64,000 nucleotides of DNA, taken from NCBI RefSeq assembly GCF_001593005.1, contig NZ_LQZQ01000002.1, positions 248,001 through 312,000 of the forward strand, in the 5' to 3' direction. The notes below the pieces were generated by a model. That model was given only the letters and a program-made list of their open reading frames with translations, searched no databases and had not been told where the DNA came from. The position numbers and the translations under genes were made by a program. This DNA is from Roseivirga ehrenbergii. Its GTDB lineage: Bacteria; Bacteroidota; Bacteroidia; Cytophagales; Cyclobacteriaceae. Positions 42,555 to 46,211 of this stretch are shown in pieces; within the stretch, counting starts at the first letter, position 1, and the number at the start of each line of letters is the position of its first letter.

Positions 42555-42971
42555 ATGAACACTCCTTTTCATTTGGCCTTTCCCGTAAAGGACATCGAAT
42601 CTACCCGATCATTCTTTGGTGACTTGCTAGGTTGCGAAATTGGCCGCTCTACAGAAAAGTGGATCGACTTTAATTTCTTCGGTCATCAATTGAGTGCACA
42701 CGTAAAGCCGGAAGAACTGGCCCAAGCGCATGCCAATATTGTAGATGGCAAAAATGTACCTGTTCGCCATTTCGGAGCCATTTTAGAATGGAACCAATGG
42801 CACACATTAGCCGACAAGCTAAAAGCCCACGGAACCGAGTTTGTGATTGAACCTTACATTCGCTTCGAAGGCCAAGTTGGCGAACAAGCCACTATGTTCT
42901 TTCTCGACCCCAGCGGAAATGCTTTAGAATTCAAAGCCTTTAAAGACACCAGCCAAATTTTTGCTAAATAG
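42555..42971 (+). CDS. VOC (glyoxalase-fold) family protein
   Basis: 138 residues, one vicinal-oxygen-chelate unit pair. It opens with '[18 protein letters not shown]', typical of the family, and contains metal-ligand candidates His6 and a Glu in the late '[10 protein letters not shown]'. The '[13 protein letters not shown]' ending matches dioxygenase and lyase-type members found in many bacteria. The substrate cannot be assigned. The gene lies 104 bp from the divergent histidine kinase and 35 bp before a DJ-1-family lipoprotein gene, so both may share a transcript linked to reactive-carbonyl handling; that link is inference. Confidence 0.88.
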
Positions 42972-43006
42972 TAGAGCATAAATAAGGATTTGAAAAACGA
43001 AAATTA

Positions 43007-43741
43007 ATGAAAAAGCTACTTCCTGTATTCTGTATTCTGCTCATGGTGGCCTGTCAGTCACCACAAGAAAACAAACAAGTTGCACAGACAACTAAACAGG
43101 TTTTCAAGCCAGAAAATAAACCCAGCAAAGAACTGAACGTAGCTTTTTTGGCCATCAACGGAGTATATAATTCAGAGCTAATGGCGCCTTTCGATATTTT
43201 TCAGCATACCATTTTTCATACAGAAAAAGGAATGAAGCCCTTTATTGTCTCTCCCACCAAAGAAGTAATTACGACTTTTGAAGGCATTCGCATTTTACCC
43301 GATTACGATTTTGATGACGTACCGAATATTGACATTCTCGTTGTTCCCAGTGCCGAAAACAACATGGGTTCGGACTTGGAAGACGAACGCCTGATCAACT
43401 TTGTGAAGGAAAAAGGAGGCAGCGCCATGTACATTATGTCTTTATGCGATGGTGCATTTATTCTGGCCAAAGCAGGCCTCTTAAATGAAGTAAAGTCTAC
43501 CACCTTCCCCAGCGACATTGGCCAATTCAGACAGACTTTTCCTGATTTAGATATTTATGAAAACGTAAGCTTTGTGCATGACGGCAAAGCCATCACCTCA
43601 TCGGGTGGCGCCAAGTCTTACGATCCAGCCTTGTACTTAGTAGAATTTTTATACGGAAAAAAAGCAGCCGATGGTGTGGCAGGAGGCTTGGTGATCGATT
43701 GGAATGTAGGCGAAATTAAATCCATTACCCCAGAAAAATGA
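43007..43741 (+). CDS. DJ-1/PfpI-family lipoprotein
   Basis: 244 residues with a lipoprotein signal: lipobox MVAC with Cys16. A DJ-1/PfpI class I amidotransferase-like domain fills about 43-240. The nucleophile-elbow Cys147 is in 'YIMSLCDGAFILAKAGLL', and 'APFDIFQ' near residue 60 is the typical early motif. The resemblance is to the GlxA/AraC-N-terminal-like branch, here without the DNA-binding part. Family members include chaperones, glyoxalases and hydratases; which activity applies is unknown. Being lipid-anchored outside the cytoplasm is unusual for the superfamily. Its stop overlaps the start of the TPR-methyltransferase by 4 bp. Confidence 0.88.
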   Translation: MKKLLPVFCILLMVACQSPQENKQVAQTTKQVFKPENKPSKELNVAFLAINGVYNSELMAPFDIFQHTIFHTEKGMKPFIVSPTKEVITTFEGIRILPDYDFDDVPNIDILVVPSAENNMGSDLEDERLINFVKEKGGSAMYIMSLCDGAFILAKAGLLNEVKSTTFPSDIGQFRQTFPDLDIYENVSFVHDGKAITSSGGAKSYDPALYLVEFLYGKKAADGVAGGLVIDWNVGEIKSITPEK

Positions 43742-45450
43742 ACGAAGCAATTATGGCTCAACAGCGTTTGATGAAGGCCATTCAAAACTATCAAACAGGC
43801 GATTTAAATGCTGCCGAAAAAGATTTACGTGAACTGCAAAGCAAGTTTCCAAAGTCAGATCAGATTTTGAGCCTTTTAGGCACGGTGCTTTATGCCAAAA
43901 AGAAATACAAAGATGCCTTCCGTTCCTATCAGGAAGCTCTTAAAATCAACCCCAATAATGAAGATGCGCTGATTAATATCGGAACGGTAGAAAAAGCACG
44001 AGGCCGAGCCGATAAAGCGATTGAATTGATGAATAACGCCATCAAGCGTCTGCCTAATCGGCCAGATATTCATTTTAATTTGGGCACCATTTATTTAGAA
44101 CAAAAGGATTTAGCCAAAGCCGAAACTGCTTTTAAAAAGTGCGTTGAGATAGACTCGAGTATTTATCAAGCCGAAATTCAACTTGTAAATATTTACAAAG
44201 AACAGAATGAATTGGCGAAAGCCGAAGCGGCCATTAGAAGTATTCTAAGCAAACAGGATTCCCCACAACTTGTAGAGAAACTCAAGGAATTGGTAGCATT
44301 ACAAGGCCGAGAATATATCGCTCCAGAAGTAAATACTGCGGTAGAAACGCCAGTTGTTCCTCAGGCTTCGACAACAGAAGATAACAATACAGACGAAGTA
44401 CTAGGGCTTGATAGCAATGACGTTCGAGGGTTAATGAACATGGGTGGCTATTTGCAAGAGCGCTATAAATTTATCGAAGCCGAGAAGTACTTTCTCCGTG
44501 TTTTAGAGAAAGAACCCGACCATGCCGAAGCACAAAAAAGCCTACGTAAACTACGGTCGTATAAAATTCCGGGTTGGCATTTCGACATGCTGGAAGACAC
44601 AGCCAGAAATGATGCTTACCAAGCCGCCATTGAAAAAGCCTTAAAGAAAAAGCCTAATGCACGTGTGCTCGACATTGGAACTGGCTCGGGCCTGTTGGCC
44701 ATGATGGCCGCACGCGCAGGCGCCTCAGAGGTTATCGCCTGCGAAATGCACAGCGAACTGGCAGGAGTGGCCAAGGAAATCATTAAGGCAAATGGCTATG
44801 AGGATAAAATCAAAGTAATCAATAAAAAGTCAACTGACCTTGACAAAGAGGTAGATTATACCGAGAAATTCGACCTGATTGTTTCCGAAATTCTAGATTG
44901 TGGTGGTTTGGGTGAAGGGGTTGTTCCTTCCCTTCGTCATGCAAAAAAGAACCTTATGAAAACGGGCGGTATCATGCTCCCGGCAGGAATGTCACTATTT
45001 GGGCAGTTGATCGAAATACCAAAGAAGTACTTGGTTAACCCCGTGAAACAAATTTCTGGCTTCGATTTAAGTGCTTTCGATCAGTTTAGACCAGTAGAGG
45101 AATATGGCAGAGTGCTATTAGAAAATGAAGAATACACAGCCCTGAGCGAGCCTTTCTTCATCGCAAAATATGACTTTCAGCAACTACCAGAAATGGGAGA
45201 TACTGAATTTAAAGAAGATGAAAAGGAGGTGAATATTACTGCTAAAGGCTGCATTCAAGCTATCGCGTTTTGGTTTGAACTGAATATGGATGAAGAATCT
45301 ACCTATTCCTCTGGCCCAAATGGAGAAATGGTGCATTGGGGACAAGCCGTTTACTTCTTTGGAGAACAGAAGGCTGTCGACTCAGGTGATGACCAACACT
45401 TAAAAGTGATCACCTCAGACAGTACAATCAAGTTTCAGTTAAAAGATTAA
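43738..45450 (+). CDS. TPR plus PRMT-like (protein arginine methyltransferase) protein
   Basis: 570 residues. TPR repeats fill about 1-175, with another near 230-265; the methyltransferase half covers 278-570. It matches eukaryotic-type PRMTs at several points: 'WHFDMLEDTARNDAY' (280-294), SAM motif I 'VLDIGTGSGLL' (310-320), acidic Glu336 after strand 2, two glutamates placed like the double-E loop (Glu384 in SEILD, Glu393 in GEGV), and a late 'VHWGQAVYFFG' in the position of the THW loop in the C-terminal barrel. TPR followed by PRMT recalls human PRMT9, and motif I recalls PRMT7. Arginine methylation is inferred from these residues. It has no signal peptide, so is cytoplasmic. Translation is coupled to the DJ-1 lipoprotein (ATGA overlap). 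A generic SAM methyltransferase is the alternative. Confidence 0.82.
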   Translation: MNEAIMAQQRLMKAIQNYQTGDLNAAEKDLRELQSKFPKSDQILSLLGTVLYAKKKYKDAFRSYQEALKINPNNEDALINIGTVEKARGRADKAIELMNNAIKRLPNRPDIHFNLGTIYLEQKDLAKAETAFKKCVEIDSSIYQAEIQLVNIYKEQNELAKAEAAIRSILSKQDSPQLVEKLKELVALQGREYIAPEVNTAVETPVVPQASTTEDNNTDEVLGLDSNDVRGLMNMGGYLQERYKFIEAEKYFLRVLEKEPDHAEAQKSLRKLRSYKIPGWHFDMLEDTARNDAYQAAIEKALKKKPNARVLDIGTGSGLLAMMAARAGASEVIACEMHSELAGVAKEIIKANGYEDKIKVINKKSTDLDKEVDYTEKFDLIVSEILDCGGLGEGVVPSLRHAKKNLMKTGGIMLPAGMSLFGQLIEIPKKYLVNPVKQISGFDLSAFDQFRPVEEYGRVLLENEEYTALSEPFFIAKYDFQQLPEMGDTEFKEDEKEVNITAKGCIQAIAFWFELNMDEESTYSSGPNGEMVHWGQAVYFFGEQKAVDSGDDQHLKVITSDSTIKFQLKD

Positions 45451-45464
45451 AGCGGCTCTAATCT

Positions 45465-45516
45465 CATCCTCGTTTATAACGAGGATGTATTCATCAAGCA
45501 TTTTAAAATGCGTTTT
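45465..45516. repeat. Dispersed double-hairpin repeat, best copy
   Basis: First stem: CATCCTCGTT pairs perfectly with AACGAGGATG around a TAT loop (45465-45487). Second: the perfect palindrome GCATTTTAAAATGC (45498-45511), followed by T residues. It lies between the convergent ends of the TPR-PRMT gene and the ABC ATPase gene and probably serves as a two-way terminator. Confidence 0.75.
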
Positions 45517-46211
45517 TAAGCCGTAAAGTAATCCTCCAAATCCTTTAAAGTAGTTTCGCTCGTTTGGATATCTTTCTGAACTTTGCCCCTTTCAAGCAAA
45601 ACAATGCGTTCACAAACTTCCGTTACGTGGTTCAAGTCGTGGCTAGAAATAAGCAAAGTCATATCCTTTTCCTCCTTTAGCTTTTTCAAAATCACCTTCA
45701 AACGAATTTGTGTTGTGGGGTCAAGATTAGCAAAAGGTTCGTCCAACAATATGATTTCAGGATTGCCCATTAAGGCCGCCACAATGCCTACTTTCTTTTG
45801 GTTTCCCTTCGAAAGGTCGCGGATGTACTTTTTCTTCCCTCTGATTTCATCGTTGAACAAATCATCGAACTGATTTAAAAACTCTTGTAAATCGCCTTTT
45901 GAGTAATTGTGCAAAGAAGCGATAAACTCGAAATATTCGTCTGGTGTTAAATAGTCTATAAGGAAAGATTCGTCTAAAAAGGAGCCTGTATAGTATTTCC
46001 AATCTTCGTTATTCTGAACGTTTTCGCCCTTAGAAAGCACCTCGCCTGTCGAGGGTCTAATCAGGTCCAAAATCATTCTGAAGAAGGTGGTTTTTCCCGC
46101 ACCATTATTTCCAACCAAGCCAAAACTTTCGCCTTTGGCAATGTGCATTTCAGGAATATTGACAACCTCAACTCCTTTATAACTTTTCGAAAGTGTTTTT
46201 ACGTCAATCAT
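45516..46211 (-). CDS. ABC transporter ATPase
   Basis: 231 residues. Walker A GNNGAGKTT (about 38-46), signature 'LSKGNQKKVG' (about 133-142), Walker B 'IILLDEPFANLD' (about 154-165) and switch His in 'LLISSHDLNHV' are all intact. It couples ATP hydrolysis to the neighbouring membrane subunit. The permease gene ends 9 bp upstream on the same strand, so the pair forms one ABC-2-type exporter or membrane-remodelling unit. The cargo is unknown. Confidence 0.95.
   Translation of the reverse strand: MIDVKTLSKSYKGVEVVNIPEMHIAKGESFGLVGNNGAGKTTFFRMILDLIRPSTGEVLSKGENVQNNEDWKYYTGSFLDESFLIDYLTPDEYFEFIASLHNYSKGDLQEFLNQFDDLFNDEIRGKKKYIRDLSKGNQKKVGIVAALMGNPEIILLDEPFANLDPTTQIRLKVILKKLKEEKDMTLLISSHDLNHVTEVCERIVLLERGKVQKDIQTSETTLKDLEDYFTA

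Follow-up and report, generated by a model that had tools for sequence, protein, structure and literature searches.

A Roseivirga protein with a TPR array and the predicted fold of a PRMT7/PRMT9-type arginine methyltransferase

The window analysed here (64,000 nucleotides of the Roseivirga ehrenbergii contig NZ_LQZQ01000002.1) encodes a protein which the original prediction described as a TPR array followed by a protein arginine methyltransferase (PRMT) resembling PRMT7 and PRMT9. This raises the questions of whether a bacterium carries an enzyme of that type, what such an enzyme would methylate, and whether the DJ-1/PfpI gene directly upstream belongs to the same process. The abstracts of several reviews treat PRMTs as eukaryotic enzymes, and an excerpt of a further source states that PRMT1-type enzymes occur in prokaryotes too (PMC10418467). 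None of the matches listed from the open PMC literature describes a bacterial TPR-PRMT or PRMT9 homologue (weak evidence, as most subscription papers lie outside it).

The TPR-PRMT protein, its motifs and its relatives

The RNDAY segment, the motif I sequence VLDIGTGSGLL and the two glutamates of a double-E loop all lie at the residues originally predicted (Table 1); the VHW in place of the THW loop, expected at about residues 541-551, is found further upstream. RNDAY is part of a longer motif, W280-H281-F-x-M284-L-x-D-x-x-R290-N291, which a phmmer search of the PDB aligns to PRMT9 WHFIMLNDTKRN; the same search aligns the double-E loop SEILDCGGLGEG to PRMT9 TETVDAGLFGEG. Residues W280, H281, R290, N291, E384, E393, H533 and W534 are invariant in all 14 aligned Roseivirga rows (the window protein included), which were collected by protein search and not by motif patterns. 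The TPR array proposed to precede the PRMT part, as in PRMT9, was confirmed by matches of TPR models to the N-terminal half (TPR_2, 1.8e-24). The Pfam PRMT_C model (PF22528) matches residues 438-562 (7.7e-12, its 45.9 bits exceeding the cut-off of 27), and both Pfam and the predicted structure give a single PRMT module. An NCBIfam model for the TPR-PRMT family was not seen among the 25 listed of 99 window matches, all of them below cut-off, nor was one seen for 19 members with a short N-terminus, where two families matched at 1e-10, in one member each.

Table 1. Features of the TPR-PRMT gene and its surroundings (positions in the window)
Feature	Position	Strand	Basis
Glyoxalase-superfamily gene, head of the same gene row	42555..42971	+	PF00903, 1.9e-10
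Gap where relatives carry an amidohydrolase gene	42972..43006	+	Comparison with relatives
DJ-1/PfpI gene, lipoprotein-type start	43007..43741	+	PF01965, 1.9e-19
TPR-PRMT gene (570 aa)	43738..45450	+	ORF list, Pfam, PDB search, AlphaFold model, fold search
TPR array, residues 1-276	43738..44565	+	TPR models; paired helices in the model
Methyltransferase (SAM-binding) core, residues 277-416	44566..44985	+	PDB search, model, superposition; exact borders chosen by us
RNDAY segment, residues 290-294	44605..44619	+	R290 and N291 invariant in 14 rows
Motif I VLDIGTGSGLL, residues 310-320	44665..44697	+	Translation, PDB alignment, Roseivirga alignment
Double-E loop, E384 to E393, within SEILDCGGLGEG	44887..44916	+	Both Glu invariant in 14 rows
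PRMT beta-barrel and oligomerization part, residues 417-570	44986..45447	+	PF22528; model strands; superposition to residue 570
VHW at the THW-loop position, residues 532-534	45331..45339	+	H533 and W534 invariant in 14 rows
ABC transporter ATPase (by reading of the ORF), conserved downstream border, outside the unit	45516..46211	-	Order kept

When the 296-residue PRMT part was searched against the PDB with phmmer, Bos taurus PRMT9 came first (5.4e-48), with human PRMT9 at 4.5e-46, PRMT7 at 2.6e-38 and yeast Hmt1 at 4e-25; a profile of the 14 Roseivirga sequences scores PRMT7 (4.8e-77) and PRMT9 (3e-76) alike. An AlphaFold2 model of the 570-aa protein, made from 46 sequences, has a pLDDT of 92.8 and a pTM of 0.67, with a low-confidence stretch at residues 199-216 of the TPR array. 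Its best Foldseek match is Bos taurus PRMT9 (8rbk; 3.1e-25, 476 columns), and VIA-align aligns 8rbk over model residues 4-570 with a whole-model rmsd of 13.2 Å, so the angle between the TPR and PRMT parts differs or is uncertain and this alignment does not demonstrate a PRMT9-like arrangement of the two. The PRMT part itself superposes closely: human PRMT9 (9ay9_D) gives Z 32.6 and 2.5 Å over 291 residues, T. brucei PRMT7 gives Z 31.8, mouse PRMT7 30.2, and PRMT1 and PRMT3 about 29, and the 50 VIA-align entries listed are all PRMTs (Z 28-33, about residues 277-570). Since entries within 1 Z are tied, the fold gives no preference for PRMT9 over PRMT7; overlaid on either enzyme, the model contains the PRMT beta-barrel.

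Our main tree, made by a careful method from 70 rows and 295 columns, included as PRMT7/9-type rows 63 bacterial sequences (the window protein among them), animal PRMT7 and PRMT9, and T. brucei PRMT7. These split from PRMT6 and two bacterial PRMT1-like rows with support of 100/98, and the window protein and four other Roseivirga rows of its subtype form a group supported at 99/97. PRMT9 falls outside the bacterial rows and PRMT7 among them, both placements being weakly supported; neither the bacterial rows as one clade (p-AU 0.39) nor animal PRMT7 and PRMT9 as one clade (p-AU 0.498) is rejected. A 25-row tree included PrmA (L021, NCBIfam PrmA at 4e-98, with L018 and L026 chosen by sequence string) and other methyltransferases. 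It sets all PRMT rows apart from these (90/99), with PrmA on a separate long branch; PRMT9 shifted there to beside the PRMT6 group (82/94), with a long-branch warning from the program. The window protein thus stands among PRMTs and apart from PrmA. The PRMT7/PRMT9-type identity originally proposed is borne out by sequence search, predicted structure and the 70-row tree, and we regard the assignment to the PRMT class as secure.

Distribution, proposed function and the SznF-linked branch

Within the genus, 11 of 18 Roseivirga relatives have a match above 200 bits, as does the window's own genome, where the one such match is the window gene. In 18 other genomes of the same family there was one match of 103 bits, to a different, PRMT6-like enzyme, and 22 other genomes of the order gave no match above 35 bits. 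A phylum sample of 395 genomes yielded two genomes with matches above 400 bits, both Roseivirga, and a next-best match of 88 bits which the tree places with PRMT1-like rows. In a pattern scan of 84,980 species, 81 of 332 candidates were confirmed and 80 loci kept (several on the same contigs as the genus relatives, and so not independent); they lie in Bacteroidota, Pseudomonadota, Bdellovibrionota and Actinomycetota, with single loci elsewhere. Phages gave no match to the family at 1e-6.

Conservation across these 80 loci is high for W280 and R290 (78/80 each) and W534 (80/80), with H533 kept in 66/80; E384 and E393 are kept in all 80, one of the two scan patterns having contained both glutamates. 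The N-terminal part is absent in two loci. At least 150 residues precede the PRMT part in 53 of 70 non-actinobacterial loci, and 46 members, picked mostly for length from the 80 loci plus the window, matched PRMT_C without exception and TPR_1 in 44 cases. Eight records of plasmid relatives are annotated as "50S ribosomal protein L11 methyltransferase" (four), TPR protein (one) and methyltransferase domain protein (one), or carry no feature (two). TPR-PRMTs are a patchy bacterial family, often mislabelled as ribosomal-protein methyltransferases.

A second bacterial PRMT class, nearer PRMT6/PRMT1, was also seen at two loci, L014 (PRMT6, 1.3e-35) and L116, which adjoins a formyltransferase-domain gene (PF00551, 3e-15). 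Weak PRMT-like matches occur in very long frames in G031 (L015; 1178 aa) and at G009:C181:67625-68002 (3961 aa).

The predicted fold, motifs and family membership of the window protein lead us to propose that it is probably a cytosolic SAM-dependent protein-arginine N-methyltransferase of the PRMT7/PRMT9 type. SAM would bind the core via motif I and E336 (which, from PRMT biochemistry, we take to be a SAM contact), E384 and E393 would clamp the arginine guanidinium in a pocket lined by H533-W534, and a terminal guanidino nitrogen would receive the methyl group. Dimerization of the single module is probable, a second copy taking the role of the fused second module of animal PRMT7/PRMT9, and the TPR superhelix would present a putative protein substrate. 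A Cys or His at the THW position is linked with PRMT product type; the His of the window protein argues against a PRMT9-like type II enzyme, and our guess at the product is therefore monomethyl- or asymmetric dimethylarginine.

The main rival to this proposal comes from the SznF-adjacent branch of the family. SznE makes N-omega-methyl-L-arginine for SznF, according to an excerpt of PMC11705231, and six actinobacterial members (L082, L090, L101, L102, L104 and L109) have an SznF-like gene upstream, counted as the nearest or next-nearest called ORF; that of L090 matches SznF at 1.4e-85. Five of the six are in our tree and fall among the bacterial rows. Five have 71-84 residues before the PRMT part, a stretch that could be read as a single TPR remnant, and the sixth (L104) has a called start that overlaps SznF; the branch that adjoins SznF is mostly TPR-less. 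On a Pantoea dispersa plasmid (L129, NZ_CP082345.1, 5033-11480) an SznF relative (2e-103) lies with a Rieske protein, a PRMT-like gene labelled L11 methyltransferase, a transporter and an ATP-grasp gene, beside Ada, an arrangement suggestive of a cluster for an N-nitroso natural product with self-protection. Most Bdellovibrionota members are likewise short, and their neighbour ORFs yielded no SznF relative.

Because short-N-terminus relatives adjoin SznF, free arginine is probably the substrate for part of the family; and it is because a bacterial sister branch sits beside SznF, which uses methylated free arginine, that protein methylation by the window protein is put here as an expectation. 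The window protein could itself be a methyltransferase of free arginine or of another small-molecule guanidine, feeding a metabolite or natural product as SznE does, with its TPRs serving assembly only. We consider this unlikely, though a serious alternative: SznF matched in none of 12 genomes (the window's and 11 Roseivirga relatives), while both control genomes were positive; the window ORFs show no evident biosynthetic cluster (by reading, with three searched against Pfam); and, by the counts above, long N-terminal parts are usual in non-actinobacterial loci and TPRs in the members scanned.

Gene order around the PRMT: DJ-1 and tail-collar neighbours

The pairing with a DJ-1 lipoprotein, originally described as translationally coupled and unfamiliar from described systems, is real. 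The PRMT ATG overlaps the DJ-1 TGA by 4 bases, and the DJ-1 protein begins with what reads by eye as a lipoprotein-type signal, MKKLLPVFCILLMVAC. The Roseivirga PRMT locus has two subtypes, and in type A (the window, G001, G002, G007, G009, G010 and G013) DJ-1 lies directly upstream in 7/7 loci. It is not obligatory, however: a DJ-1 orthologue of at least 67% identity occurs in 11 of 19 genus genomes (partial in G017, distant in G016 and G018), and in four of these relatives, G003, G004, G011 and G014, it stands without a PRMT at that place (G011 has a type-B copy elsewhere). In G014, where the flanking DNA shares 84-91% identity with that of the window, 14 bases separate DJ-1 from the ABC gene. 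The absence of the PRMT from beside DJ-1 in four relatives, including the close G014, shows that the PRMT gene is dispensable, and a conserved position from which it is repeatedly missing is most readily taken as a sign of vertical inheritance followed by losses. An amidohydrolase gene adjoins DJ-1 in 8 of the 11 DJ-1 genomes and is absent in the window, G002 and G003; a short stretch at window positions 42972-43006 resembles the 3' end of the amidohydrolase gene in G014.

As to the conservation of the DJ-1 neighbour across Bacteroidota, it holds within Roseivirga, and none of the remaining named loci shows it. When every neighbour ORF of the window and the 80 named loci was searched with phmmer, DJ-1 turned up at the window and four type-A Roseivirga loci and nowhere else; this search and the profile counts below used all 81, whereas our first neighbour clustering had lost 11 of them where no target ORF was called. 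The four relatives that have DJ-1 without the PRMT rule out an obligate partnership, and the link amounts to gene order conserved within the genus rather than to a system.

That gene order, with DJ-1 and a glyoxalase-type gene in the same row, is what would favour a PRMT-fold methyltransferase that, in concert with the two upstream genes, would modify a different nucleophile or else glycated or damaged arginine. We hold this to be improbable, given the DJ-1 loci that lack a PRMT, the retention of both clamp glutamates, and the lipoprotein reading of DJ-1 beside a PRMT without visible signal sequence, which places the two proteins probably in different compartments. An ordinary PrmA-like ribosomal protein methyltransferase, as the database labels of four plasmid relatives and a Pfam PrmA match (3.1e-12) would have it, is rejected as very improbable, since that match is limited to the SAM-binding core (residues 304-413), the PRMT C-terminal domain is present, PrmA keeps to its own long branch, and genuine PrmA is encoded by a separate gene, as relative G006 illustrates (NCBIfam, 4e-98).

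Type B loci, found in seven Roseivirga genomes and joined in the tree by Owenweeksia L059, adjoin phage-tail-collar proteins, as do loci on another branch in Oceanospirillum (L060), Ferrimonas (L088) and an Aliivibrio MAG (L044). By distances that we read from coordinates, the seven type-B genomes together with those of L059, L060 and L088 have 23 collar matches, 16 of them no more than about 10 kb from the PRMT, against 0 of 12 in five type-A-only genomes; G013 has none near its PRMT and G011 one of three. Home-made profiles run over the 81 loci found collar proteins at 11, formyltransferases at 9, periplasmic-binding-type proteins at 7, and 2OG oxygenases and Asp/Arg hydroxylases at 6 each, counts that are not independent since many of the loci are related. 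A Pfam tally of neighbours of diverse loci (113 of 171 ORFs) showed no dominant partner: Asp/Arg hydroxylase 5, acyl-CoA dehydrogenase 4, Methyltransf_25 4, and collar, formyltransferase and 2OG oxygenase 3 each.

Ten loci (L061, L062, L074, L075, L076, L057, L059, L060, L088 and L044) are flanked by varying sets of tail-collar, 2OG-Fe(II) oxygenase, Asp/Arg hydroxylase, formyltransferase and periplasmic-binding-type genes (the last a borderline Pfam match). Such flanks occur in Bacteroidota and Gammaproteobacteria, and the collar-linked PRMT loci are possibly modification islands for collar proteins. For the window a collar link is ruled out, as the one collar gene of its genome is on another contig. 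At 6897-8657 of contig C9 of that genome (L121) a periplasmic-binding-type gene is followed by a tail-collar gene, with no PRMT nearby.

Meaning and comparison with known systems

A bacterial enzyme built like animal PRMT9 suggests that arginine methylation of proteins may proceed in some bacteria much as it does in animals. Such a family would provide simple single-module models for PRMT7/PRMT9 chemistry and a further setting, bacterial proteomes, in which to search for methylarginine; it would also make the origin of the PRMT7/9 branch a question that can be tested, and its proximity to SznF-linked enzymes is relevant to how specificities for protein and for free arginine came to diverge. 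We offer one wider picture as speculation, which as a whole we think rather doubtful: that TPR-PRMTs are an overlooked protein-arginine methylation family, with a single-module TPR-plus-PRMT form ancestral to animal PRMT9/PRMT7 and SznE-like enzymes as a TPR-less offshoot, and that some of them methylate tail-collar proteins together with 2OG hydroxylases.

PrmA (the L11 methyltransferase) shares the SAM-binding core with the window protein and branches separately from it in our tree; it is not known to have either the PRMT C-terminal domain or the double-E loop. SznE/StzE, the arginine-guanidino methyltransferase of streptozotocin biosynthesis, is bacterial like the window protein, and the SznF-adjacent members belong to the same family (SznE itself being known here by description and not by sequence). 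It acts on free arginine with SznF, as the same excerpt states (PMC11705231), whereas SznF finds no match in the genome of the window.

PRMT7 (mouse, C. elegans, T. brucei) shares the tree subgroup of the window protein, equals PRMT9 in profile score and superposes at Z 29-32; in the mouse and C. elegans chains the second module also matches the profile, weakly so in C. elegans. PRMT7 is not known to carry a TPR array. Animal PRMT9 (8rbk, 7rbq, 6pdm, 9ay9) is the best single-sequence and fold match, and like the window protein it has N-terminal TPRs (three, according to an excerpt of PMC10984984), the WHF-x-ML-x-D-x-x-RN motif, a GEG double-E loop and the barrel. It differs in having two tandem PRMT modules where the window protein has one, and CW at the THW position where the window protein has VHW. 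The TPRs would speak for PRMT9 over PRMT7 as the nearer of the two, but the window protein lacks the second PRMT9 module.
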